DNA of 64,000 nt from NCBI GenBank assembly GCA_903932145.1, contig CAIZFE010000086.1:310001-374000 (forward strand). Direction: 5' to 3'. Positions 12,978 to 64,000 of the stretch are shown here, in pieces; the first letter of the stretch is position 1, and each line of letters begins with the position of its first letter. Made by a program: the position numbers and the translations under genes. The DNA is from an uncultured Rhodopila sp. (lineage in GTDB: Bacteria > Pseudomonadota > Alphaproteobacteria > Acetobacterales > Acetobacteraceae). The notes below the pieces were generated by a model. That model saw nothing but the letters and a program-made list of their open reading frames with translations, did not search any database and was not told the DNA's origin.

Positions 12978-15900
12978 TCACCGCCTCGCGCCTTCCAGAC
13001 TGGCCTCGATCTGCGCCACCAGAGCTCGACCGCTTATCGGCTTACGCACAAGCGTGAACGCATTCGCCGACGACAATGCGGCGCGCTCTCCCACGTAACC
13101 AGTCATCAGGAAGCAGGGTAGCCCGGGACGCATCGCGCGCATTTTTTCGATGGCTGTTACCCCGTTCATACCGGGCATCGACAGATCGCTGACCATCGCA
13201 TCGATAACCTCACCCGCTTCGATCAGGGCGATTGCCTCGGGTCCGCTGGACGCCACCAGAGTCAGCAAGCCCTCTGCCTCGAGTTGCGCAGCCACCGTTT
13301 CGCGAACCAGATCGTCGTCGTCCACGATCAAAATCCGCGCGGACGGCCCGTGTCCCATGTTCAAATGGCTATCGGCGTCCGGTGACGAAACAACCGTGTC
13401 CGATGCCTGGCGTAGCCACAGCACCACCGTCGTCCCCGATCCGGGCGTGCTGGCTATCGAAAGGCCGCCGCCGGACTGTTCCGCAAATCCCTTGACCATC
13501 GGTACGCCAAGGCCGGTCCCCTGGCCTTGTGGCTTGGTAGTAAAAAACGGCTCGTTGACGCGCGCAAGAACGGCCGCATCCATCCCCATGCCGTTGTCGG
13601 CGATGGTCAGGCGCACATAGTCCCCCGCGGCCAGCGCGGCGGGATGAACCTGGCCATCCCGTACATGGTCCGCTTCGGCTGACAGAACCAGCGTGCCGCC
13701 GTCGGGCATGGCATCGCGGGCGTTGGTGCCCAGATTGATGATCGCCGTCTCCAACTGCGCCTGATCGGCGACCAGCGCCGGAATGTCGGCCGGAACCTCG
13801 GTTCGTATCGAGATCGTGGACCCCAGAGTGTGCGCGAGCACTTCGCACATGTTGTTCAGCAGGTCAGCGGTGGCAACCACTTCTGATCGCAGGTCGCCGC
13901 GACGGGCAAACGACAGCAGGCGCTGAGTGATTGACGTTCCGCGTGCAGAAGCCGTGATGATGGTCGCGGACAGGCGCCGAACCTTCTCCTGATTGTCCGG
14001 TCGAAGTTCGATCAGCGCGGCGGCCCCGGACACGGCCTGTAGAATATTGTTGAAATCGTGGGCGATACCTCCGGCAAGTTGGCCGAGCGCCTGGACTTTC
14101 TGGGCCTGAACGAGCTGGTTGGCGAGATTGCGGTTCTCGGTGAGATCGCGGCCTTCGGCGATGATCCACATGACCGCACCGGTCGCCGGGTCGCGCGAGG
14201 GCGTTAGCGAGAAATCGGTCCAGATCGACCGCCCCCCGGCGCCGTTGATTTCCAGCTCCCGCCGAACCGGTTCACCCTGTGCCGCCTGCGCGACCTCCCG
14301 TCGCAGTCGCTTGCGTTCCGCCGCCGGCCATAACCCGATGTCCCAGGCCGGCTGGCCAACGACGCCGCCTCGGGTCAATCCGCTTGCGTCCAGCGCGGTG
14401 CGGTTCATTTCCAGAATGGTGCCGTCCAGCGAGAGCAGGATGATGAACTGGAACTGTGAGTCGAAGATGCCGCGGAATCTGGCTTCCGCCTCGCCGAGGG
14501 CCGCCGTGCGTTCGGCGACACGGCGTTCCAGTTCCGCCGCATGGGACGCCAAAGCCTGGCGGGCTGCGACGATTTCGGTGATATCCTGCTGCGCACTGAT
14601 CAGCCTGTTCGGTTTTCCGTCCGGCCCGCGCAGGACTTCGAAACGCATCGTGATCCAGCGCATCGGTCTGTCGCGCGGCAGAATGCGAAACTCGGTGGTG
14701 AATACGCCCCCCTGATCCCAGGCAACCCGTGTCAGAGCTTCCACCGCTTCGCGGTCACCGGGATGGAACATGGCGAGGATATCCGTAGCCGCCATGCGGA
14801 TCTGGCCGGACGGCAGGCCGTATAGTTTGATGAACTCCCCGGAGATGAAAGCATCCAGGTCAGGCAACGTCCGGTCGCTATAGGCGATGCCGCCCGCTTG
14901 CTGAACCAGTCGCAGCCTTGCCTCGCTGTCGCGCAAAGCTGCTTCCGCCATTTTGCGGTCAGTGGTGCTTTCCGAGAACAGCAAGGCGCCGCCGATGGTT
15001 CCGTCCGCCAGCCGCCAGGGTACCATCTCCCATCGTACCCAATCGATGTAGCCGTCTTCGCGCGGGAACGGTTCCTCGTCCGACGATAACGTCTCGCCGC
15101 TCAACACACGGTTGTGGACGATCCGCCAGTTCTCGGGGATCTCTGGAAACACCTCGTAATGGCTGCGCCCCAGCAGGCTGGCCTGTGTCTCATTGCCGAT
15201 CTGGTAATCCGCGATGAAGCGCCGGCTGACCGCCAGGTACCGCATTTGGGTGTCGAACATCGCGATCGCCGCCGGCGCGCCATCGATGAACAGCCGCAGC
15301 TTCGTCTCACTGTCTCGCAGTGCCATCTCGGCCTGCTTGCGGGCGGTGGCGTCGCGGATGATCCCGGTGAGGGAGTGGTCGCCATTCGTGCCGAACGAGC
15401 TAACCGATAACTCGATCGGGAACTCCGACCCGTCGCGCCGGATCGCAAGCAGGTCACGCCCCGGCACGTCGATCGCCCGTGGCGGCGCCCCTGACCGATG
15501 CGCCCTGATGTAGCCGTCGTGTCTCGCCCCATCGGCGGCGGGCATCAGCATCGTGAGGTTGCCACCGATCAACTGATCCGCGCGCTCATAGCCGAACATA
15601 CGTAAAACGGCGCGGTTGACAGACTGGATACGGCCGTCGGCCTTGGCAATGATGAAGCCGTCCGCCGCGGTGTCCACCAGTGAGTGGAGTTGCGCCTCAC
15701 TGACCTTCAATTCCGCTTCGGCCTGACGCAAAGCGGTAACATCGGCCATTGTCGTGACGATCAGTTTCTCGGTGCCATCCTCGAAGTCACGGACGACCTT
15801 CGATGCAACGACAATGTCCTCGGCGCCGGACTGTGTCTTCTGGCGCAACTGGCCGTGCCATGACCCGGTCGTGTGAAGGGCTGTCTCTATCTCGGCCTGG

Positions 15901-16805
15901 GGACAGGGAAAGGTCGTTTGCAGCAGCTCATGGGCCAGTCTTCCGGTAGCTTGCTCGGACGTCCATCCATATAGTTGCGTGCACCCATCGGACCAATAAA
16001 TGATTTTGCCGCTGGCGTCCCGGAGTACCATCAACAGGGACACGCCGATCAAATCGAGCAGTTGTTGTCGCTCGGCCGCCGCTGCTCGTGCGTCGCGGTT
16101 CGCTGCCCTGACCAACAGCGCTCGGGCAACTATCACGAAGCTGACAAGCAAGCCGCAGATCGCGAGGATGCAAAGCGATACGACGATCCGCGTCGACCAG
16201 AGTTCGATCGAATCCACCTTTGCGTGCCGTTCGATCAGAAGGCGTTGTTCCTCGGCGATCATGTCGGTCGTGGTCAGCCGAATCGCGTTTACGGAGGCCT
16301 CGCCCTCACCGCCGCGCACCACATCGGCCGCCCGCTTGCTGTCCCCGCCGCGCGTGAGTTGGATCATTCGGGCGACCACCGCCAATTCGGCTGATATCTG
16401 GTTCGATAGTGTATTCAAGTGGTCCTGCTGGCGGGGATTGTCGGCCGTCAGGACCCGGACCTCGGCGAACCTGGCCCAGATCGTGTCGCTTTGAGTGGAT
16501 TGGCCGAGGAAATTCGGGTCATCGGTCAGCACGAAGCCACGCGCGTCCGCCAGGACGGCCTCGACGCTGGTCTGGAGGCGGCCGATGGCGGCGATGACCG
16601 TTTGGGTGTGCTCGACCCGGGCGGCGGCCGAGCGGGCTTCCTGGCTGAGCGGCAGCACATAGCCAAATACCGCGGCGGAGATCGCACCGACCGCAACCAA
16701 AAGGCTGGCGACGCCGAACAGCCAGCGGCCGATACGGTCCAGAGGCCGGCCGAGGGAGGGAATATTTTTTGAAAACGGATTATTTTGTTTGGTTCTGGGT
16801 GTCAT
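12978..16805 (-). CDS. Membrane hybrid histidine kinase: CHASE3-like, five PAS, HisKA, HATPase, REC
   Basis: About 1,275 aa. Order from the N-terminus: membrane helix (~28-51), CHASE3-like periplasmic region (~55-200), second helix (~205-228), five PAS units (~248-375, 376-500, 505-630, 630-760, 790-905), dimerisation domain with phospho-acceptor GGIAHDFNN (~930), ATPase domain with the G-box GQGTGLGVPM, and a C-terminal receiver (ILIVDDDDLVRE, phospho-Asp in VSDLSMPGMNG). It senses an unknown signal and passes phosphate on. I chose the ATG at 16805 (MTPRTKQN); the frame is open 19 codons further, through a 13-nt homopolymer (see that entry). No response regulator gene is adjacent. Confidence 0.93.
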   Translation of the reverse strand: MTPRTKQNNPFSKNIPSLGRPLDRIGRWLFGVASLLVAVGAISAAVFGYVLPLSQEARSAAARVEHTQTVIAAIGRLQTSVEAVLADARGFVLTDDPNFLGQSTQSDTIWARFAEVRVLTADNPRQQDHLNTLSNQISAELAVVARMIQLTRGGDSKRAADVVRGGEGEASVNAIRLTTTDMIAEEQRLLIERHAKVDSIELWSTRIVVSLCILAICGLLVSFVIVARALLVRAANRDARAAAAERQQLLDLIGVSLLMVLRDASGKIIYWSDGCTQLYGWTSEQATGRLAHELLQTTFPCPQAEIETALHTTGSWHGQLRQKTQSGAEDIVVASKVVRDFEDGTEKLIVTTMADVTALRQAEAELKVSEAQLHSLVDTAADGFIIAKADGRIQSVNRAVLRMFGYERADQLIGGNLTMLMPAADGARHDGYIRAHRSGAPPRAIDVPGRDLLAIRRDGSEFPIELSVSSFGTNGDHSLTGIIRDATARKQAEMALRDSETKLRLFIDGAPAAIAMFDTQMRYLAVSRRFIADYQIGNETQASLLGRSHYEVFPEIPENWRIVHNRVLSGETLSSDEEPFPREDGYIDWVRWEMVPWRLADGTIGGALLFSESTTDRKMAEAALRDSEARLRLVQQAGGIAYSDRTLPDLDAFISGEFIKLYGLPSGQIRMAATDILAMFHPGDREAVEALTRVAWDQGGVFTTEFRILPRDRPMRWITMRFEVLRGPDGKPNRLISAQQDITEIVAARQALASHAAELERRVAERTAALGEAEARFRGIFDSQFQFIILLSLDGTILEMNRTALDASGLTRGGVVGQPAWDIGLWPAAERKRLRREVAQAAQGEPVRRELEINGAGGRSIWTDFSLTPSRDPATGAVMWIIAEGRDLTENRNLANQLVQAQKVQALGQLAGGIAHDFNNILQAVSGAAALIELRPDNQEKVRRLSATIITASARGTSITQRLLSFARRGDLRSEVVATADLLNNMCEVLAHTLGSTISIRTEVPADIPALVADQAQLETAIINLGTNARDAMPDGGTLVLSAEADHVRDGQVHPAALAAGDYVRLTIADNGMGMDAAVLARVNEPFFTTKPQGQGTGLGVPMVKGFAEQSGGGLSIASTPGSGTTVVLWLRQASDTVVSSPDADSHLNMGHGPSARILIVDDDDLVRETVAAQLEAEGLLTLVASSGPEAIALIEAGEVIDAMVSDLSMPGMNGVTAIEKMRAMRPGLPCFLMTGYVGERAALSSANAFTLVRKPISGRALVAQIEASLEGARR

Positions 16806-16816
16806 TGGCAAAAGCC

Positions 16817-16829
16817 GGGGGGGGGGGGG
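16817..16829. repeat. Homopolymer tract G13 (C13 on the coding strand of the kinase)
   Basis: Thirteen consecutive G on the plus strand, 11 bases upstream of the chosen kinase ATG. It sits either in the leader, where it would alter spacing of the ribosome site, or inside the extended frame, where slippage would shift it. It could be a phase-variable tract or a sequencing length error. Confidence 0.9.
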
Positions 16830-18024
16830 ACACTCTGATCTCCAGAAATTTGCCAACTCCACTCAATATATGTGAGCGAGATCGGTTGTCGCCAGCACTG
16901 TGTAGTGCCTTTGGGCGAGAACCCGGCATCTGGTTTTATCCGGGAAGATGCAATGACTGGCCGCGAGACATTGGCGGTAGCCTTTCTGTGTCGTCTGAAC
17001 GTAATGTATCGTTATTGATCAGGTCTTCCCCTATGTTACCGGTTCACAACCATAAGCAGAATGGTTTCGGCGCCGGGATTCGAATGTTGGTAAATGTTTC
17101 GAAAAAGATTTGAAAATGTGATCGCGATTTTGCGATTCCAACAGCACCCGGTTGAAATCGCGCTTCGCACTCGAAGAGATACCACACTCTTTGGGACCTC
17201 ATCAGCGCGTGCAAGTGTGGAAGGTCCGGGGCCGAATACGGCCGGCCAGTTCGCGGCGTGCCGCGACTGCCGCCACCTCGTTTGCCGGCATAAAGCACGG
17301 TATCGGCCTGGGCGGTCTATTGGTCGGGTGTGGTTGGATACTAAGTGCGGCCCCGATACGGATATGACTGTGCTCGAAGCTCCCAGCGTCATACGGAATG
17401 CCCCACGCGCTGATGGTCGCATATATACGGGTCACCGTCTGTGATGCCCGAGCTGTGGTGCGGCGGGCAGGTCCGCGACACCTTATTGAAGGGGGGGCGG
17501 ATCGCCCATTAACGGGATGGCGACTCCGATGTCGATCATCTGCCCGCGGGATGATGCCGAACGCCTCTCCGCTGTAGGCACCGGGGCTGTGCATGGTGGC
17601 GGCGACGATCAACGGCCCGAACGCATCAACCGCGACGAGAGCGCCAAACCGGACCGGCGTTCGTTTCTTCGGCTCCGTTGCAAACCCGCCACCCGCGGAT
17701 CGTACTCATATCGTCACGGTGGCCGACCTCTGTCATCCATCCCTTTGTATAGACTAATATAAGGACGTGGATGCCCGGCTTCGCCGGCAGGACACGGGGG
17801 CCTGGCGGAGAGGCGGGGTCAACGCGGTTGGTCGTGCACCGACGGCGCCGGGTCTGACCGTTCCGGCCAATCCCGCCATCGCGGCTGCGACACCCGGCTG
17901 AAATGAATCATCCCGAAATAATTTGCAGTACAATGAGACGGCGCCGTCGTATTGCGTCTTTCCGGCTCCGCGTGTATCTGATCACGAATTGCTAATAATT
18001 TCGGATTGCTCGTGGGGTCGCGCT
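16830..18024. other. Intergenic region between the hybrid kinase and the porin-cytochrome
   Basis: About 1.2 kb with no reading frame that I can support on either strand; the open frames have no recognisable domain or ribosome site. It must hold the divergent promoters of the kinase and the cytochrome/cupredoxin operon. A short GC-rich hairpin (CCGGC TTC GCCGG) lies near 17774-17787, after an AT-rich stretch (17747-17763) that could carry a -10-like box. The stretch 17030-17130 is also AT-rich. A decayed gene cannot be ruled out. Confidence 0.4.
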
Positions 18025-19461
18025 ATGGACGTCAGACTGGTTGCCCGCCTCCGCGCCGTTGTGGAGCCATTACGCCCGAGCTTCGACGGGACCCGGTGCG
18101 CCGGGACCGGTGTGATCGCTGCCGGCAGGACTCTGCCACGCTCCGGGCGGCCCGTCCTGTGGTGCCTTCTCACTCTTCTGGCGCTGTATCCCTGGTCCGC
18201 CAACGCGGTGCCGTCGTTCGCGGAGCAGACCGGGCAACCCTGCGCGGCCTGTCACGTTGGGGCTTTCGGGCCGCAACTCAAGCAGTACGGACGCGATTTC
18301 AAGCTCAACGGCTATGTCGCGACCGATGGCAAGAACCATTTTCCGCCGCTGGCGGTAACCACGCAGCTTTCGTTCACCCACACCAACAACGCCCAGCCAT
18401 CGCCGCCGGCGCATAACTTTGCCGACAATGACAATTTCGCCATGGATCAGGCGTCGCTGTACTATGCCGGTAAGATCGCGCCGAATGTCGGCGGCTTCAT
18501 CCAGGTGACGTATGACGGAATAGGCAAGCAACTCCATATCGATAACACCGATATCCGCTACGCTCACGACACAGAACTGTTCGACCAGGATTTTGTTTAT
18601 GGCTTCACGGCCAATAACAGCCCGTCAGTGACCGATTTGTGGAATTCGACCCCGGTCTGGGCGTTCCCCTACAACCAATCTCCTCTGGCGCCGACTCCGC
18701 TCGCGTCCACGCTCATCGACGGTGGCCTGGGTCAGAAAGTCGCCGGGGCCGGCGCTTACGCGATGTGGAACGACCTCGTGTATGCCGAGTTCGATCTGTA
18801 TCGTGGACTCGGTTACGACGTCTTGAACGCGACCGGTATCCTGCCGGTCGCCGGCACCGACAAGACGCAGGGGGTCATTCCCTACTGGCGTCTGGCGCTG
18901 CAACAGAATTTCGGGCGCCACTATGTCCAGGTTGGCACTTATGGTTTGAACGCCAGCGTTTTGCCGGGCGGTGTCGAAATTCCCGGTCACGTCGATCAGT
19001 TCACCGATCTGGCGCTGGATGCGAACTATCAGTTCGAATTCAATCCAAAGGACGTGACCGGCGATATGATCTCCGCGCATGCCACCCTGATCCACGAGGA
19101 CGGTTGGCTTGGTGCGAGCCAGATCGTCGCCGGTTCGGTGCCGTTCCATGGCCTGGATACGTTTCGTGCCGACGTGTCATATAGTTTCGGCGCCACCATC
19201 ACGCCATCGATCCAGTATTTCTCGACTCACGGCACCGCCGACGCCGCCTATTTCGGAACCGCGAATGGCAGCCCCAACAGCAGTGGGATGATCGCGGAAA
19301 TCGCCTACGTGCCGTTCGGCAAGCCGGATTCGTTCATCTCATGGGGCAATATTCGTTTCGCTGTTCAATACGTCAGCTATTTCCGCTTCGACGGTATGAC
19401 CAACAACGCCTCCGCCAACAACGCCTTGTATTTCAGCGTTTGGGCCGCGGCACATTTCTGA
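18025..19461 (+). CDS. Outer-membrane monohaem porin-cytochrome (Cyc2-like)
   Basis: About 478 aa from the ATG at 18025. A hydrophobic signal (LWCLLTLLALYPWSANA) is followed within 12 residues by one haem c motif, CAACH (residues 73-77), then a segment QLKQYGRDFKLNGY that resembles Cyc2-type proteins. The remaining ~380 residues alternate polar and aromatic residues like a beta-barrel and end in Phe (VWAAAHF), the classic outer-membrane assembly signal. This layout (one haem in front of a barrel) is that of Cyc2, the outer-membrane iron oxidase, though related 'cytochrome c' porins of unknown role exist. A GTG at 18112, just before the signal, is an alternative start. A cupredoxin gene follows after 33 bases. 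Confidence 0.8.
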   Translation: MDVRLVARLRAVVEPLRPSFDGTRCAGTGVIAAGRTLPRSGRPVLWCLLTLLALYPWSANAVPSFAEQTGQPCAACHVGAFGPQLKQYGRDFKLNGYVATDGKNHFPPLAVTTQLSFTHTNNAQPSPPAHNFADNDNFAMDQASLYYAGKIAPNVGGFIQVTYDGIGKQLHIDNTDIRYAHDTELFDQDFVYGFTANNSPSVTDLWNSTPVWAFPYNQSPLAPTPLASTLIDGGLGQKVAGAGAYAMWNDLVYAEFDLYRGLGYDVLNATGILPVAGTDKTQGVIPYWRLALQQNFGRHYVQVGTYGLNASVLPGGVEIPGHVDQFTDLALDANYQFEFNPKDVTGDMISAHATLIHEDGWLGASQIVAGSVPFHGLDTFRADVSYSFGATITPSIQYFSTHGTADAAYFGTANGSPNSSGMIAEIAYVPFGKPDSFISWGNIRFAVQYVSYFRFDGMTNNASANNALYFSVWAAAHF

Positions 19462-19494
19462 ACATCCCTGCCAACCGAAATGGATGATTAAACA

Positions 19495-19827
19495 ATGCGT
19501 CGAGTAATCCTCATCTCCGCGGCGTCGGTGCTCATCGTGACCGGCATGGGGGCAGGCGTCAGGGCCGCCACGATTGCGATCGAGCAAACGGCCCTGCGTT
19601 TCAGCGAGAAAACGGTGGACCTGCACAAAGGCGATACCATGGTTTTCGCAAACAAGGACGATGTCACCCATAACGTCAACGTCATCAACGACGACGACGA
19701 TCTGGCGGCCGATCTGGGTGTGCAGAAGCCGGGTGAGGATCTCAAATACACGTTCGACAAGGCCGGACGCTTTAAGATTCGCTGCGCCATCCATCCCAGA
19801 ATGAAGATGATTATCAACGTCAATTAG
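19495..19827 (+). CDS. Periplasmic cupredoxin (plastocyanin/amicyanin-like)
   Basis: A 110-aa small blue copper-type protein with a cleavable signal (cut likely after VRA at residue 24). Type 1 copper ligands can be placed: His59 in VTHNV, then Cys97, His100 and Met103 in CAIHPRM. Such proteins carry single electrons in the periplasm. It follows the porin-cytochrome with 33 bases between and is very likely in the same operon, so it is the natural electron partner of that haem protein, much as rusticyanin partners Cyc2. The partnership is inference from position. Confidence 0.88.
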   Translation: MRRVILISAASVLIVTGMGAGVRAATIAIEQTALRFSEKTVDLHKGDTMVFANKDDVTHNVNVINDDDDLAADLGVQKPGEDLKYTFDKAGRFKIRCAIHPRMKMIINVN

Positions 19828-19924
19828 CGAAGGCGTGGACAGGAAGGGTGTAGGGTAAGCCGGCTGCCAGATAGCCCCCTGTGAAGTCGGGTGGGGGTTT
19901 GATCTCGATACAATCGCGCCTCTG

Positions 19925-21187
19925 TCAGCCGGGAACGACCGCGGCGACGGGCGAGACGGTGCGGCAGCGCCTGTCTTTTGGCGTTTCCGGGCACGACGGC
20001 GTTGGCGTTGCGGCGATACGCAGGCAGTTGCGTCCGGCGCGCTTCGCCGCATACAGGGCGGTGTCCGCGCGGGCCGTCAGTTGCTCCATGGTCGATTGCT
20101 GATCCGGCGAGACACTGGCCAGACCGATGCTGATCGTGACATGACGGAAGCTGCTGGCATCGTGCGGGATTTGGCGCGCGGCCACGGCGCCCAGAATGTC
20201 GGATGCCATTTTCGTGGCACCGGTCGCATCGATACCCTGTAAAATCACAACGAATTCCTCGCCACCGAAGCGGGCGACCATATCGCCCGGCCGATGCAGG
20301 CATGCGGCGATCGCGGCGGCAACGTCGCGCAGGCAGGCATCGCCCGCCTGATGACCATAGCAATCGTTGAAGGCCTTGAAGTGGTCCACGTCCAGCATGA
20401 GCAACGACAGCGGGGTCATATCCCGGCAGGCTCGGCGCCATTCGCGGGCGAAGGCGAGGTCGAAAGCGCGCCGGTTGGCGACGTCGGTCAGCGCGTCGGT
20501 GGCAGCCAGGGTTTCCAGATGCGTGTTGATGACTTCCAGTTCCTGCTTGGCTATTTCAAGACTATTGACGAGTTCTGTTTTCTCCTCGTCCTGGAGCAGG
20601 AGTTGCTTTGTTTGCTTGTGCAAGAACTTACTCAGTGCCAGGGCCGCGATGATGTTCATCACCACGAAGACCGCGAGCAAGCCCAGATAGGGATCGCCGG
20701 ACAACAGGCAGGCGATGGCCAACGGTGTTTGTGTCAGCAAAATCTGACCCACCGCGATGGCGCGTAACGCGCAATTGCGAACCGCGCCGCCCATCATGCA
20801 GGCCGTCTGCACCGCCAGGACAACGATAACCAGATTTCGCTCCGGTTCGAACAGAATCACCGCGCTCCACGCGCCCCAACCGGCGGCCGCGGCCCATGTG
20901 CTGACAAGGCCACGTTTGGCCCAGGTGACGGGTGACGCGGTTTGACGGGATATTTCGTAACGGCGAGCTTGCCAGATCCTCCAGGCGCCGGTGATGGCGG
21001 CCACGATCATGCCGCCCAGATACCAGATCGAGCCGGTGCCGATGAGACCTACGGCGCCCAGCATCATGAAGCCGCTCATGCTGATGATCACGATGCGAGT
21101 CTGCCGAAACAGCGTGTCCACCAGCTTCCGGGCAATCTCCGGAGAGACATCGTCCAATTCACGCAAGCGGTCTGTTAGCCGTAGCAT
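19925..21187 (-). CDS. Membrane-bound diguanylate cyclase (GGDEF)
   Basis: A 420-aa protein with about five to six hydrophobic helices in the first 190 residues, a short coiled-coil linker (DEEKTELVNSLEIAKQELEV), and a complete GGDEF domain. The active-site loop reads ARFGGEEF, so cyclase activity is expected, making cyclic di-GMP from GTP. An inhibitory site RxxD (RPGD) lies exactly five residues before GGEEF, so product feedback is likely. The membrane part may be a sensor of unknown type. It converges on the cupredoxin gene and the tRNA-Gly lies upstream. Confidence 0.92.
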   Translation of the reverse strand: MLRLTDRLRELDDVSPEIARKLVDTLFRQTRIVIISMSGFMMLGAVGLIGTGSIWYLGGMIVAAITGAWRIWQARRYEISRQTASPVTWAKRGLVSTWAAAAGWGAWSAVILFEPERNLVIVVLAVQTACMMGGAVRNCALRAIAVGQILLTQTPLAIACLLSGDPYLGLLAVFVVMNIIAALALSKFLHKQTKQLLLQDEEKTELVNSLEIAKQELEVINTHLETLAATDALTDVANRRAFDLAFAREWRRACRDMTPLSLLMLDVDHFKAFNDCYGHQAGDACLRDVAAAIAACLHRPGDMVARFGGEEFVVILQGIDATGATKMASDILGAVAARQIPHDASSFRHVTISIGLASVSPDQQSTMEQLTARADTALYAAKRAGRNCLRIAATPTPSCPETPKDRRCRTVSPVAAVVPG

Positions 21188-57764: not shown

Positions 57765-58655
57765 ATGTCCCTGGAAACCCGAGAGCTGCACCCTGGCCTG
57801 GCCGCCGAGGCCGGTTTCCTGGATCTGTCGCAACCGCTGGACCCAGACACGATCGCCGCGATCCAGACGGCCATCGACGCTTACCCCGTCCTGGTTTTTC
57901 GCAGCCAGAGCCTGACCGATGCGCAACTGCGCGATTTCGCCGCCCGCTTTGGCCCGCTGGAGATCGGCCGCTCCGCCGCACGGCCCGGCCGCAGGCGCCT
58001 CGCCATCCCGCAGATCGGTGACATCTCCAACCTCGACGTGGACAACAAAGTCCGAGCGCTGGATGACCGGCGGCGGCTGGACGGGTTGGGAAACCGGCTG
58101 TGGCACACCGACGCATCCTACATGCCGGTCCCCGTCGTGCTCGGCATGCTGCACGCGGTCACGCTGCCGCCGGCCAGCCCCTTCGGCAACGGCGAAACCG
58201 AGTTCGCCGACATGCGCGCCGCCTATGACGCCTTACCGGCCGAAACGAAAGCCGCGATCGATCCCCTGATCGCCGAACACGATGTCTTCTGGTCGCGCGC
58301 CCAGATCGGTTTCACCGACTTTCCGCAACCGGAACGAGACCAGTATCCGCCGTCGCCGCAACGACTGGTGCGGCGGCATCCGGTGACCGGGCAGAAAAGC
58401 CTGTATCTGTCGGCGCATGCCTCGCACATCAAAGGATGGCCGATCGCCGATGGGCGCCTGCTGCTGGTGGATCTGAACGCGCACGCGACGCAGACTCGTT
58501 TCATCTACAGTCATACATGGCGTTTGGGCGATCTGGTGATCTGGGACAATCGGTGGACGATGCATCGTGGCCGTCCGCACGATGAACACAAGCCGCGCGA
58601 TCTGCGGCGGGCGACAACGCTCGATACGGGATCGACGCTGAACGAAGCGGCATAA
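57765..58655 (+). CDS. TauD/TfdA-family Fe(II)/2-oxoglutarate dioxygenase
   Basis: A 296-aa dioxygenase. The iron facial triad is visible as WHTDASY (His and Asp) and the distal His in RWTMHRGRP; the 2-oxoglutarate Arg in RDLRRATT. Size is that of TauD/TfdA enzymes, which hydroxylate taurine, herbicide or other acid substrates and split them. Substrate unknown. It is 11 bases before the CoA-transferase gene, so both may act on one acid. Confidence 0.92.
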   Translation: MSLETRELHPGLAAEAGFLDLSQPLDPDTIAAIQTAIDAYPVLVFRSQSLTDAQLRDFAARFGPLEIGRSAARPGRRRLAIPQIGDISNLDVDNKVRALDDRRRLDGLGNRLWHTDASYMPVPVVLGMLHAVTLPPASPFGNGETEFADMRAAYDALPAETKAAIDPLIAEHDVFWSRAQIGFTDFPQPERDQYPPSPQRLVRRHPVTGQKSLYLSAHASHIKGWPIADGRLLLVDLNAHATQTRFIYSHTWRLGDLVIWDNRWTMHRGRPHDEHKPRDLRRATTLDTGSTLNEAA

Positions 58656-58666
58656 GGGGAAACAGG

Positions 58667-59863
58667 ATGAGTCAGGCCCTAAAGGGTATTCGCATTATCG
58701 ATATGACGCACAATCAGGCCGGCCCGGCCTGCGCGCAGATACTCGGCTTCCTGGGTGCGGACGTGATCAAGCTGGAGGAACCGACAGGCGGCGACGTCGC
58801 GCGCACCAACATGCGCGATAAACCCGACAGCGACAGCCTGTTTTTCTTAATTCTCAACGCCAACAAACGCAGCGTCACGCTGAACCTGAAGACCGAGGAC
58901 GGTAAAGCCCTGTTCCGCCGCCTGATCGCGGAATCCGATGTCCTGCTGGAGAATTTCGGTCCCGGCGCACTGGACCGGCTGGGTCTCGGTTACGATTCAC
59001 TATCCAAACTGAACCCGAAACTGATCTACGCAACGATCAAGGGCTTCGGAACCTACGGCCCCTACAGCGGCTACAAAAGCTTCGAGCCGATCGCCCAGGC
59101 GATGGGCGGCGCCATGGCCGTGACCGGCTTTCCGGAGAACCCGCCGACCTACGTCTTTCCCGCCATTGGCGATTCCGGCACCGGCATGCACATGGCGATC
59201 GGTATTCTCGCCGCCCTGCAGCAGCGCCACGCAAGCGGAAAAGGCCAGCACGTCGAGGTGTCGATGCAAGACGCCGTGGTCAACCTGATCCGGGTCAGCC
59301 TGCGCGACCACCAGCGCTACGGCCATCCGCCGCCGCGCGTCGGCAATCAACTCGGGCAAACGGTGCCCGGAACGACATACCCCTGCGCGCCCGGCGGTCC
59401 CAACGACTACGTCTATATCTTTGCCCAGCCGCAGATGTGGAAGCCGTTTCTCGGGGCGATCGGCCAACCGGAACTGGCGGACGACCCGCGTTTCGCAACA
59501 CCCGGCGCCCGCTGGGAACATCGCGACGTGCTGAACGGGATCGTCGAAGCCTGGACCCGCCAGCGCACGAAACATCAGGTGATGGACATCCTGGGAGAGG
59601 CCGGCGTCCCCAGCGGCGCCTGTCAGGACACGGGCGAAGTGCTCGCCGACTCGCATCTGCGCGCCCGCGAGATGATCGTCGATGTCGATTTCCCGACGCG
59701 CGGTACGTATCAGACGGTTGGTTGTCCGATCAAGCTGTCCGACTCACCCGCCGAGATAACCCGTCCGCCGCTGCTCGGGGAGCACACCGACGATGTGCTG
59801 GCCTCCTTGCTGGGCGTGGCGCCTGACGAGTTGAAGCGTCTGCACGCAACCGGCGTCGTCTGA
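58667..59863 (+). CDS. Class III CoA-transferase (CaiB/Frc family)
   Basis: A 398-aa CoA-transferase with the usual N-terminus IRIIDMTHNQAGPACAQILGFLGADVIKLEEPTGGD-like pattern, LLENFGPGALDRLGLGYD, and the catalytic Asp in PAIGDSGTGMHMAIG. It moves CoA between carboxylic acids, as in formyl-CoA:oxalate CoA-transferase and carnitine CoA-transferase. It follows the dioxygenase closely. A strong hairpin terminates it. Confidence 0.92.
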   Translation: MSQALKGIRIIDMTHNQAGPACAQILGFLGADVIKLEEPTGGDVARTNMRDKPDSDSLFFLILNANKRSVTLNLKTEDGKALFRRLIAESDVLLENFGPGALDRLGLGYDSLSKLNPKLIYATIKGFGTYGPYSGYKSFEPIAQAMGGAMAVTGFPENPPTYVFPAIGDSGTGMHMAIGILAALQQRHASGKGQHVEVSMQDAVVNLIRVSLRDHQRYGHPPPRVGNQLGQTVPGTTYPCAPGGPNDYVYIFAQPQMWKPFLGAIGQPELADDPRFATPGARWEHRDVLNGIVEAWTRQRTKHQVMDILGEAGVPSGACQDTGEVLADSHLRAREMIVDVDFPTRGTYQTVGCPIKLSDSPAEITRPPLLGEHTDDVLASLLGVAPDELKRLHATGVV

Positions 59864-59872
59864 TCCACAGTC

Positions 59873-59904
59873 GCGCGTTGTCATACGGAAGTATGCCAAC
59901 GCGC
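59873..59904 (+). terminator. Hairpin terminator after CoA-transferase
   Basis: A stem of 13 base pairs with one mismatch (GCGCGTTG-T-CATAC with GTATG-C-CAACGCGC) closed by GGAA, a stable GNRA tetraloop; it is followed by TTTACA. It lies ten bases after the CoA-transferase stop. Confidence 0.75.
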
Positions 59905-60080
59905 TTTACAATAACCAACGCCGCATGCCAATGTATGATAAAGATGGTGTGAAATAGGATGCAATAAGACTGAAATAAAATATTACTGCCAACCCGTGGC
60001 TGCATACAATTTTTCTATATATCTGGGAAACCGGCAACAGCGGACCTCACCACTCCGCGGTAGCACGCCGGGAGCCTGTG

Positions 60081-63000
60081 ATGACCAGCACCACGATCAA
60101 GCCCGTTTCACAGTTAGTCGTGGCTGCCACCGACCTCTATACTTGGTCGAACCCCTATGGCGGCACCTGGGGGACCGGATCGAACTGGTTCGATACCACG
60201 GTCGGCTCGCCTGTCATCGCCGCCCCCGGATCTGCCAGCACGGTCAGCATCACCGGCGGCGCCGGCAACATGTTCACCAACATCCTCGGCAGCGGGGCGG
60301 CGGCGCAGCTTTCCATCACCAATGACGTGCTGGTCTGGGGCACCATCGCCGTCGGCGGCACGCTGTCACTGACCGGCTCCTCCACCGAGTTGGACCTCGA
60401 CGGCGGGGCCAGCGTTGCGGCCGCCAGTCTAACTCTGGGCACAAGCGCGACCCTGGAGGTTGCGGCCGCCAGCAAACTCAAGGTCAGCGGGATCACGACG
60501 TTGACCGATGGTTTCCTGCTGGCGGTCAACACCGGCACGATCCAACTCGGCGGCCTGATCGCCAACGCCTTCGTTGGGCCGAGCGGGCTGACCTACGGCA
60601 CCATCGCGGTCGATGACAGCGCGTCGGTGGAGATCGGAACGCAGGGAGGCGCCGCCGCCGGTGCGATCACCATTGATCAGGGCATCTCCGCCACGGTCTG
60701 CGGCATGATCGACGGCACTGTCGTGCTGAACGGCATTCTGGGCGTGCAGGCCGGTGCCTCGCTCTACATCGACATCGGCGACCCGTTCGGGAACGGGCAG
60801 ACGATCCACGGAACCGGCACTTTGGTCATCGGCGAGAACAGTCTGATCGCACTCGGTGTCGCCGACAGCGCGGCGGTGACGTTCGCCGGGCCAAACGGCA
60901 AGCTGACGCTGTATGCGCTGCCGACGGGCACGATCAGAGGGTTCGCGGCTGGCGATACGTTCGTGCTGATTGGCCTGGCGACGGGCATGACCTATGCGCA
61001 GACCTCGGCCACTGTGGCGACGCTGACCCTGACGAAGGGGACAACGGTTGTTGGCACACTAAGCCTCGCGGGCAATTACGCCGGTAGCCTGTTTCACATG
61101 CTGATCGACGGCCATGGCAATGAGTTCATCACGCTGCAAACGGTGGGCACCGCGCCCGTGCAGCCGACCCTGATCACGGGGACGGCCGGATACGACAGCC
61201 TGAGCGCGACGGCCAACAATCAAACTCTCACCGGCCTTGGAGGTAATGACAGCCTGAGCGCCGGCAGCTTCACCGGCATCGATTTCAAGGACACCAGTGC
61301 CGATCTGAACGGCTGTACCATCACATCGTTCTCGCCCTACGACGTGATTGACCTGACCGACATGAAACTGAGTTCGGTCACCGGGACCTATACGCCGTCC
61401 GTCATCACCGCCGGTGCGACGATTGTTCCCGCCAATCTGTTGGTCAGGGACGGGACCCACACCGCCACGATCCTGTTCTCACCGTCCACGCCGCTGGCGT
61501 TCGGATACTGGTCGGTCGCCTCGGACGGCGCGTCCGGCACCGATCTGCGCTACACTCTTATCAGCACGGACCCCTACACCTTCAACAATCCACTCGGCGG
61601 CGCCCTGGGGACTCTGGCCAATTGGCAGGATGCCACCACGTCGGCGGCCGCGACGGTGCAACCAGGCTTTGGCAACGCCCTGACATTCAGTGGGGGCGCC
61701 ACATTCATGGATATAACCGGTTCGGCGTCGGTCGCCAGCCTGACGACCAGCGGCGATGTGCTGTTGCTGGGAACCCTGAATGCGGGAACCGCCATCCAGG
61801 GTTTTTCCGGCGCGCTGTCACAGACCGGCACTTTGGCCCTGGATAGCGGCGCAAGCCTGGTTCTCGCTGGCGGGGCTGCCATCGGCGGTCTGGTCGAGGT
61901 TGGCGGTGCCGGCAAGCTGACCGCCGCGGGCACCGCGACGTTCACCACGCCCAATGCCGAACTTCTGGCGATCAACGGTGGCACGATGCAATTCGCCAGC
62001 GTGAACACTACGACCGGCATCACCTATGTTCCGGTCTTGTATTCTCCATCCGTCGTCGCGGACGACCCAAAATCGTCCATCGACTTCGGTACCGCCGGCA
62101 ACGCCGTGGTTGGAGCTCTGACCATCGATAGCGGCATCACGGCGAATTTCAGCGGCACGATCGATGGCAACGTCGTGGTCAACGGCACTCTGGCCGTCAC
62201 CAACGCCGCACTGACCATCGCTCCGTTTGGATCGGCCGCCCCATCCGTCAGCGGGTCGGGAACGTTGCTCATCGGAGGCGGCGGTATATTGACGCTGACC
62301 GGATCGGATAGCGCCGCGATCCAATTCGGAGGCGGGACCCTGGCCTTGGGCAGTACCCTGCCCGCCGCCACGATCTCGGGTTTCGCGGCCGGGGATGCGA
62401 TTACCCTGACGAGGCTGGTGACCGGTCTGACCTACATGCAGACCGGCGCCGCCAACGGCACGCTGACCCTGCTCAGCGGAACCACCACGATCGGCACCCT
62501 GAATTTGGCCGGCGCCTATACCGCGCAACAGTTTCGGGTGCAGTTCTCCGGCATCGGGACGTCAAGCAGCATCACCTATGCGGCAACGCCCGGCACCGGG
62601 CAGGGGGGCCAGGTCAGCAGCACCGCGGATAGCTATGCTTGGACCAACGCCAGTGGCGGCAACTGGAACAGCCCCGGCAACTGGACCGATACGACGGCCG
62701 GCGGCGCGGCTGTGACCGTGCCGGGGGCAGGCAACGCGGTTGTCATCCAGGACAACCCCGGCCCCGCAACGTCCCAGATCATCGCCGGCTCCGGTGCGGC
62801 GACCTCGTTGTCGGTGTATGGTTCGGCCAGTTCGGTTTTCACCGGCACGATCGCGGTACTCCGCCAGTTTTATCTGGGCACCAATCCGTCGGCCGGGATT
62901 GCTCTGACCGGCGGCGCCCGGTTCAGCGTCGGCACTCTGGCCGATTACGCCGCCCTGATCGTCTCGGCCGGCAGCGCATTGACCGAAACCGGACTGTCCG

Positions 63001-64000
63001 GCGGATCGGAAATTGTCGGCAGCCTGAGTGTGATCGCCGCCAGCACTGTCAAGGCCGCCGGCAGCTTCGACATCGGTGGCGGCATCGTCGCCGTGGATGC
63101 GGCGTCGGTGCTGGAACTCGGGGCGGCCGGCGGTGCGGCAACCGGCGCTTTGACGATCGACAACGGACAGGCGGTGTCGCTGGAAGAGAACGGGATCATC
63201 GAGGCTAAACTGACGGTGAACGGCATTTTGGCCGTCAGCAACGGGATACTGGAAGGCTTCGGCGGCACCGCCGGCTCGATCGGCGGCAGCGGCACGGTCC
63301 AGATCGGAGCCGGCCGGTTGACCTTGAACGCCACCGACAGCGCCGCCCTGGCATTCAGTCCGTCCGGCGTTGGCACCCTGGAAGTGCGCGGCCCGCTGCC
63401 GTCCGGCACGATCGGCGGTTTTGCAGCCGGCGACACGATTCAGATCGATCAGACCGTCACGGGCGCCAGCTTCATCCAGACCACAGCCACAACCGGCAGG
63501 CTGACGCTGACGGACGGCGCGGTGACGGTCGGGACGTTGGCGTTCGCGGGCAGCTTCGCCGGCGGCCTGTTTCAGGTGGACCCGGGCGCATCCAGCGGCG
63601 TGGCGACGATCTCCCTGCAAAGCGCGGCCACCGGCGCCGCAACCGCCACCACCAGCAGCAGCAGCCGGGACGCCTACACCTGGACCGGCGCCAGCGGTGG
63701 AAGCTGGTCCACAGCGTCGAACTGGACCGATGCGACCACCAACATCGTCGCGGCAACTCTGCCCGGCACCCTCGACCCGGTCACCATCAACGGCGGCAAC
63801 AGCCAATACATGACGATCGGAGGCACCGGACTCTGTGCCAGTCTGGCTGTCACAGGCTTGATTTTGCTGACCGGTCAGGTCACCTCGGCCGGGCAACTCG
63901 CACAAACGGGCCAAACCGCGTCGCTGGCGTTGGAGGCCGGAGCGAAAGTCACCGCCGCTTCAGCCACCCTGGCCGGCATTTGGGAGGTCGGGGGCGGCAG
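60081..64000 (+). CDS. Giant repeat-built, probably secreted protein (5' part, runs off the window)
   Basis: The frame from ATG 60081 is open to the window end: at least 1,306 codons without a stop, with GGAG seven bases before the start and an AT-rich leader. It has no N-terminal signal. Modules of about 350 residues repeat: each starts with a (Y)x(W/F)xNxxGGxWxxxxNW motif (Tyr at residues 20, 499, 852, 1199) and has a later GFAAGDxxxL motif (Phe at 288, 768, 1114), between which Gly/Ala/Ser/Thr beta-strand repeats run. The first is longer by about 130 residues and holds an RTX-like GGNDSL (~387). Composition points to a beta-solenoid adhesin secreted by type I route. Confidence 0.9.
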   Translation, partial: MTSTTIKPVSQLVVAATDLYTWSNPYGGTWGTGSNWFDTTVGSPVIAAPGSASTVSITGGAGNMFTNILGSGAAAQLSITNDVLVWGTIAVGGTLSLTGSSTELDLDGGASVAAASLTLGTSATLEVAAASKLKVSGITTLTDGFLLAVNTGTIQLGGLIANAFVGPSGLTYGTIAVDDSASVEIGTQGGAAAGAITIDQGISATVCGMIDGTVVLNGILGVQAGASLYIDIGDPFGNGQTIHGTGTLVIGENSLIALGVADSAAVTFAGPNGKLTLYALPTGTIRGFAAGDTFVLIGLATGMTYAQTSATVATLTLTKGTTVVGTLSLAGNYAGSLFHMLIDGHGNEFITLQTVGTAPVQPTLITGTAGYDSLSATANNQTLTGLGGNDSLSAGSFTGIDFKDTSADLNGCTITSFSPYDVIDLTDMKLSSVTGTYTPSVITAGATIVPANLLVRDGTHTATILFSPSTPLAFGYWSVASDGASGTDLRYTLISTDPYTFNNPLGGALGTLANWQDATTSAAATVQPGFGNALTFSGGATFMDITGSASVASLTTSGDVLLLGTLNAGTAIQGFSGALSQTGTLALDSGASLVLAGGAAIGGLVEVGGAGKLTAAGTATFTTPNAELLAINGGTMQFASVNTTTGITYVPVLYSPSVVADDPKSSIDFGTAGNAVVGALTIDSGITANFSGTIDGNVVVNGTLAVTNAALTIAPFGSAAPSVSGSGTLLIGGGGILTLTGSDSAAIQFGGGTLALGSTLPAATISGFAAGDAITLTRLVTGLTYMQTGAANGTLTLLSGTTTIGTLNLAGAYTAQQFRVQFSGIGTSSSITYAATPGTGQGGQVSSTADSYAWTNASGGNWNSPGNWTDTTAGGAAVTVPGAGNAVVIQDNPGPATSQIIAGSGAATSLSVYGSASSVFTGTIAVLRQFYLGTNPSAGIALTGGARFSVGTLADYAALIVSAGSALTETGLSGGSEIVGSLSVIAASTVKAAGSFDIGGGIVAVDAASVLELGAAGGAATGALTIDNGQAVSLEENGIIEAKLTVNGILAVSNGILEGFGGTAGSIGGSGTVQIGAGRLTLNATDSAALAFSPSGVGTLEVRGPLPSGTIGGFAAGDTIQIDQTVTGASFIQTTATTGRLTLTDGAVTVGTLAFAGSFAGGLFQVDPGASSGVATISLQSAATGAATATTSSSSRDAYTWTGASGGSWSTASNWTDATTNIVAATLPGTLDPVTINGGNSQYMTIGGTGLCASLAVTGLILLTGQVTSAGQLAQTGQTASLALEAGAKVTAASATLAGIWEVGGG

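Follow-up and report, generated by a model that had tools for sequence, protein, structure and literature searches.

What does a haem-bearing outer-membrane pore do beside the gene of a small copper protein in a relative of Rhodopila? In the window, a 64,000-nucleotide stretch of contig CAIZFE010000086.1 from an uncultured Rhodopila sp. (assembly GCA_903932145.1), two adjacent open reading frames (ORFs) on the forward strand encode a predicted cytochrome-porin and a cupredoxin (Table 1). The pair, read together with the full cassette seen around its relatives, is proposed to form an inward electron relay that would bring electrons from a donor outside the cell, probably Fe(II), to the cupredoxin; judged from sequences and models, this has a probability of about 0.5. 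The original prediction had described a Cyc2-like porin-cytochrome with a cupredoxin beside it, and its ORF pair, CAACH motif at residues 73-77, C-terminal Phe and 33-base spacing are all confirmed on the sequence. Added here is the setting: the Cyc2-like porin and its conserved cupredoxin are placed, by sequence comparison, in a clade whose loci are linked to chemoreceptors and multicopper oxidases.

Table 1 Coordinates of the gene pair, its parts and the other loci discussed (window positions, except for C54, C22 and L139).
Feature	Position	Strand	Description and basis
Cytochrome-porin ORF	18025-19461	+	478 amino acids, C-terminal Phe
N-terminal region, residues 1-61	18025-18207	+	hydrophobic signal-like stretch ending Ala-Asn-Ala
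Haem domain, mature residues 1-47	18208-18348	+	(A)VPSFAEQT - CAACH - PQL; relatives' motifs, model, published signature
Haem c motif CAACH, residues 73-77	18241-18255	+	sole CXXCH in the protein
16-strand outer-membrane barrel	18349-19458	+	AlphaFold2 model; Foldseek and VIA-align porin matches
Intergenic gap	19462-19494	+	33 bases, stop to start; no terminator-like site in the gap reported by the scan
Cupredoxin ORF	19495-19827	+	110 amino acids
Copper ligand His59	19669-19671	+	sequence, alignment
Copper ligands Cys97, His100, Met103	19783-19803	+	C-x2-H-x2-M loop; sequence, alignment
Weak terminator-like hairpin 3' of the pair	19876-19897	+	consensus match only
PAS-rich hybrid histidine kinase	12978-16862	minus	flanks the pair, opposite strand
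GGDEF diguanylate cyclase	19925-21187	minus	flanks the pair, opposite strand
Third cytochrome-porin of the own genome, C54	35777-40529 (L121:7778-12530)		with 191-amino-acid unknown protein, c-type cytochrome, two small proteins and multicopper oxidase, same strand
Own-genome C22 cluster	58056-63247 (L177:57-5248)		MtrB/PioB porin, ten-CXXCH cytochrome, one-CXXCH ethylbenzene-dehydrogenase-type protein, NapC/NirT cytochrome
Cyc2-like / Cys-rich / PufC genes	L139:3-3015	minus	PufC PF02276, E=1.9e-118

The cytochrome-porin is predicted with high confidence as a small haem domain of three short helices followed by 16 main strands. Its AlphaFold2 model, built on 52 aligned sequences (the window and 51 of the 80 named loci), has a mean predicted local distance difference test score (pLDDT) of 93.2 and a predicted template-modelling score (pTM) of 0.90. 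The nearest solved structures by fold, found with Foldseek and VIA-align, are porins: OmpC, OmpF, chitoporin and OprO. The barrel that the original prediction had read from a strand-rich body is thus present in the model, and a soluble C-terminal half is rejected on the same model and fold matches. At the level of sequence, Pfam and NCBIfam searches with the porin return no family up to E=1, and the sequence search of the PDB returns three weak DNA-ligase matches only. The proposed signal peptide holds in part: a hydrophobic stretch ending Ala-Asn-Ala does precede residue 62, the peptide itself being predicted from inspection of the sequence. Since the matches of most relatives begin at about residue 45-52, the start codon may lie downstream of 18025.

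The published model of Cyc2 is a 16-strand porin resembling OprO/OprP, plugged from the periplasmic side by the cytochrome, and biochemical evidence for Fe(II) oxidation comes from three diverse representatives (Keffer et al. 2021, PMC8406198). The same source gives the signature as AXPXFAR[Q/K][T/Y], CXXCH and PXL, the last placed 4 residues downstream of the haem motif. The window porin has a single N-terminal CXXCH, a 16-strand barrel fused to a cytochrome domain in 478 residues (at least 365 in the published description), and PQL, in which Pro is the sixth residue after His, a spacing shared by 21/21 Ferrovaceae-family proteins. The first motif is incomplete: AVPSFAEQT matches 6 of the 7 fixed positions, with Glu in place of Arg. 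The Ferrovaceae are iron oxidisers, and a cluster 2 Cyc2-like protein is said to be in all Ferrovaceae metagenome-assembled genomes (MAGs) of PMC13390463. A profile of the 21 Ferrovaceae-family proteins, which are probably these cluster 2 proteins, matches a single ORF among the 579 of the window, the cytochrome-porin, at E=5.2e-55; with the haem domain removed, the barrel alone matches at E=4.6e-38. A porin profile has a match in 29 of the 32 genomes in the family of a record titled 'Ferrovum sp.', here equated with the Ferrovaceae. Because the Ferrovaceae profile matches both halves, the window porin is placed in the wider Cyc2-like family, and because the signature Arg is replaced by Glu it is filed as Cyc2-like rather than as Cyc2. 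The layout of one haem fused in front of a barrel, for which the original prediction had made a Cyc2-profile match decisive, therefore holds on this proxy profile (5e-55) and on the 16-strand model, and its caution that iron use is unproven still applies.

By sequence, then, the protein is a Cyc2-like cytochrome-porin. It resembles Cyc2 in one CXXCH near the N-terminus, AxPxFA-x-QT before it and PxL after it, a 16-strand barrel and a similar length; it differs in the Glu for Arg, in forming a clade of its own and in its links to cupredoxin, chemoreceptor and oxidase. The full first motif occurs in 34 of the 80 named relatives, which divide into 0/19 within the clade of the window and 34/61 outside it. 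Among the 21 Ferrovaceae-family proteins it is found in 15 when read strictly and in all 21 when Tyr is allowed for Phe. The missing Arg, a feature of 19/19 named clade proteins, may mark a change in haem potential or in partner.

The downstream protein belongs to the Copper-bind (plastocyanin/azurin) family PF00127 (E=3.3e-10; 40.7 against a cut-off of 21.2 bits) and has a signal-like start. Its AlphaFold2 model (pLDDT 97.8) adopts a plastocyanin/amicyanin fold, with amicyanins, plastocyanins and the cupredoxin domain of multicopper oxidase 9cck as nearest solved relatives. His59, Cys97, His100 and Met103 lie where they had been predicted, and these ligands and the C-x2-H-x2-M loop are invariant in 19/19 aligned cupredoxins, the one in the window included. 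The protein nevertheless falls far below the equivalog cut-offs of both amicyanin (TIGR02657; 21.6 versus 110.2 bits) and plastocyanin (27.5 versus 87.85 bits). The copper loop of rusticyanin is C-x4-H-x4-M and that of amicyanin C-x2-H-x2-M. Membership of the rusticyanins is rejected on this loop, and the rusticyanin parallel drawn originally fails at the family level. Neither the best 60 of 65 solved-structure matches nor 50 matches of a second listing include a rusticyanin-named entry, which excludes nothing by itself. The rus operon of Acidithiobacillus, cyc2-cyc1-cup-cox-rus (PMC10654088), likewise encodes a Cyc2-type outer-membrane protein with small copper proteins; by contrast, no other haem-motif ORF is called at 9100-30981 of the window, where the cox genes were not profile-searched, the window cupredoxin lacks the rusticyanin loop, and elsewhere it is a chemoreceptor and a multicopper oxidase that accompany the pair.

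The association of porin and cupredoxin is conserved. In a tree of 132 rows, from which 9 truncated or motif-lacking ORFs and duplicate loci were left out, the window porin falls in a group of 25 rows (Shimodaira-Hasegawa-like approximate likelihood-ratio test 96), which is kept at 94/90 in a careful tree of 60 of these rows. The cupredoxin lies directly downstream in 20 of the 25 and in another arrangement in 2; in 2 it is missing, and 1 row is cut off. Linkage was then counted within 4.5 kb at 85 loci, comprising the window, the 80 named loci (the best 80 of 560 confirmed matches) and L120, L121, L125 and L126, with other unnamed loci, L128 and L129 among them, left out. A cupredoxin is found at 20/23 clade loci versus 4/62 outside, a chemoreceptor at 18/23 versus 0/62, and a multicopper oxidase at 12/23 versus 1/62. 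At loci with 4.5 kb on both sides, the corresponding counts are 10/10 versus 3/38, 8/10 versus 0/38 and 6/10 versus 1/38. A receptor-hairpin motif, sought anywhere in the locus, occurs in 9/23 clade loci and in 0/62 others, and Pfam confirmed all three receptors and five oxidases submitted from cassette loci. Three of the four cupredoxins outside the clade (L046, L088, L089) lie upstream and are of a differing sequence type. The pairing of porin and cupredoxin in the original prediction is shown by these counts to be conserved, and a chance neighbour is rejected on the relatives of both proteins in other bacteria, the high-confidence barrel and the conserved adjacency.

The distribution of the cupredoxin across genomes follows that of the porin. 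With matches accepted up to E=1e-15, it is present in 6 of the 59 genomes, the own genome included, and these are exactly the genomes with clade porins; the cupredoxin beside L018 falls just short of the cut-off. Of the 16 cupredoxin genes in these genomes, 15 have a clade porin, chemoreceptor or oxidase within 1.5 kb, the exception lying at a contig end. The own genome holds four copies: the window copy with its porin, C24 with porin, PilZ receptor and oxidase, C65 with a receptor only, and C22 with an oxidase only. The C24 porin is 77% identical to that of the window, and its cassette has all four genes. The receptors are of differing types, PilZ-bearing in the own genome (L120, L178), with relatives aligning in other Acetobacteraceae-type loci, and of a four-helix-bundle type in Ferrovum-titled cassette loci; the porin-receptor link was therefore perhaps made more than once. 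Clade porin and cupredoxin also stand together at four Ferrovum-family loci (L048, L057, L060, L142). Ferrovum myxofaciens is an iron oxidiser that similarly combines a Cyc2-like protein with a cupredoxin, its iron oxidation being listed in a table of PMC4725956 as Cyc2-like protein, then cupredoxin and cytochromes c; chemotaxis has no mention in the available text of that paper.

In the proposed relay, a small solute in reduced form, most probably dissolved Fe(II), would enter the 16-strand pore, where the single haem c, presumably at its periplasmic mouth, would take the electron. The haem would pass this electron to the cupredoxin of the neighbouring gene in the periplasm, as the conserved adjacency suggests, and the cupredoxin would be linked to one of several sinks, among which, in the complete cassette, a multicopper oxidase could hand electrons to O2. 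There, too, a methyl-accepting chemoreceptor could monitor how reduced the relay is, and the cell would move towards the donor. Fe(II) as the donor is a best guess from the kinship to Cyc2 and the other iron-type conduit of the host. The link to a receptor points to sensing of the relay's redox state as well, and the conserved cassette suggests that an outside donor such as dissolved iron may serve cells both as an electron source and as a cue for steering. Carried further, the cassette would be a redox-taxis device: the porin would take electrons from Fe(II) or some other donor outside the cell, the cupredoxin would carry the redox signal to the chemoreceptor, and the multicopper oxidase would reset the system with O2. 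This extension is tentative, and we hold it to be possible but doubtful. If true, it would connect an electron donor outside the cell with the chemotaxis machinery through a dedicated pathway, with the window pair as its uncoupled core. Iron oxidisers sit in narrow Fe(II)/O2 gradients, and the cassette offers a testable candidate for a donor-to-taxis link via a cupredoxin. In a genome study, two freshwater strains seem tactic to O2 and/or Fe(II), specific chemotaxis assays not having been done (PMC3770913), and iron sensing has been raised as a possible role of Cyc2 (PMC12016527). In open-licence PMC papers, no description of a cassette of Cyc2, cupredoxin and chemoreceptor was found, an absence that carries little weight; papers naming both a cupredoxin and a chemoreceptor deal with other topics, judged by their titles and the openings of their abstracts.

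Several points weigh against the relay and its link to taxis. The grounds for Fe(II) are only the kinship to Cyc2 and other genes of the host, and it is a warning against this donor that the named clade members have all lost the signature Arg; as none of these 19 carries the full signature, the clade may have abandoned iron oxidation. The window copy has neither chemoreceptor nor oxidase nearby in the 4.5 kb linkage scan, and this bare core is the main weakness in extending the taxis idea to the window pair. The counts themselves need care: some MAGs are near-identical and one genome supplies two loci, so that the p-values overstate how independent the loci are, and clade members served as training set for the profiles of chemoreceptor and oxidase. 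Cupredoxins of the same type adjoin a porin outside the clade at L105, and also at L018/L128, not in the 85. Within the clade, L051 and L054 have a small single-CXXCH protein in place of the downstream cupredoxin, and the third porin copy of the own genome, C54, has a c-type cytochrome and no cupredoxin; the electron carrier is therefore not fixed. Functional data for this clade were not found. At L051 the one-haem protein is cytochrome c-550-like, below the cut-off of that family, and the two loci perhaps record a carrier swap.

The host genome (6.66 Mb) lends itself to a plainer account, in which Fe(II) would be oxidised for energy or photosynthesis, the electrons would feed either the cytochrome of the reaction centre or a terminal oxidase, and the chemoreceptors would be merely co-inherited or co-regulated. 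It carries two reaction-centre (PF00124) genes of pufL/M type, a four-haem PufC-like ORF, and a cluster of MtrAB/PioAB type, in which an MtrB/PioB porin scoring above its cut-off is accompanied by a ten-CXXCH ORF and a cytochrome of NapC/NirT type. The biochemical evidence on Cyc2 noted above and the window copy, an electron-transfer core only, favour this account too. Against it stand the chemoreceptors near clade loci alone and in more than one type, the clade without the full signature, and a weak RuBisCO large-chain match (64.8 bits); we consider it unlikely. Since that match is weak, iron autotrophy is not supported, and photoautotrophy on iron, also considered, faces the same weak match; the matched protein is probably RuBisCO-like, the family also matching in Bacillus subtilis. 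For chemotaxis, the host has eight CheW-domain matches on three contigs.

A cupredoxin next to a CueO/laccase-like multicopper oxidase is a common theme of copper resistance, and the clade has both. If the cassette handled copper or another metal, the porin with its haem would reduce the copper or let it in, the cupredoxin would bind it, the CueO-like oxidase would detoxify it and the receptor would steer the cell away. The partner is a Cyc2-like porin, however, the five tested oxidases lie far below the CueO and copper_res_A cut-offs, and no copper-export family appears among the family-searched neighbours, most neighbours not having been searched; this account appears quite improbable. A Met-ligated type 1 copper site usually has a high potential, which disfavours outward flow, as a high-potential cupredoxin would be poor at reducing an external acceptor. 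Such flow, in which the cupredoxin would reduce the haem and the haem dump electrons on an extracellular acceptor, has a parallel in acidithiobacilli, where Cyc2 isoforms are described for the reduction of ferric iron (PMC10715153), and is very unlikely here, the linked oxidase suggesting an O2 sink.

Under the inward relay, a reaction-centre-bearing relative of Rhodopila would have in the window pair a second possible inlet for electrons from outside the cell. As in PioAB/MtoAB, of which a cluster of this kind lies elsewhere in the host, electrons would cross the outer membrane; those systems differ in using a separate porin and a decahaem cytochrome, and the window porin, fused to one haem, does not have the separate porin with multihaem cytochrome of MtrAB/PioAB. 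The MtrB/PioB cluster on C22 is about 11 kb from the cupredoxin-multicopper oxidase pair, and the gene set of the C54 porin is apparently one operon. That such a pair should occur in an organism not known for this activity had been overstated: the pair is present, but Cyc2 homologues are already reported in Acetobacteraceae, often beside a mono- or dihaem cytochrome gene (PMC10715153), the available text of which has no mention of a cupredoxin.

Around the pair, a promoter scan of 17400-20000 gives 0 sites versus 1.4 expected by chance, and the scanned region contains 5 terminator-like sites versus 2.7 expected. The PilZ domain in the sister-cassette receptor and the GGDEF and PAS kinase genes flanking the window pair make a link to cyclic diguanylate (c-di-GMP) possible. 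The GGDEF and PAS kinase genes were also considered as partners of the pair, but both are encoded on the opposite strand. Thiosulfate is favoured as the donor for several phototrophic Ferrovaceae (PMC13390463), which may be of other species than the Ferrovum-family loci L138 and L139 (genomes G059 and G060). At these two loci, a divergent Cyc2-like gene is followed by a gene for a 126-residue Cys-rich protein with no Pfam family and then by a PufC gene, a layout that hints at electron flow from Cyc2 to the reaction centre.
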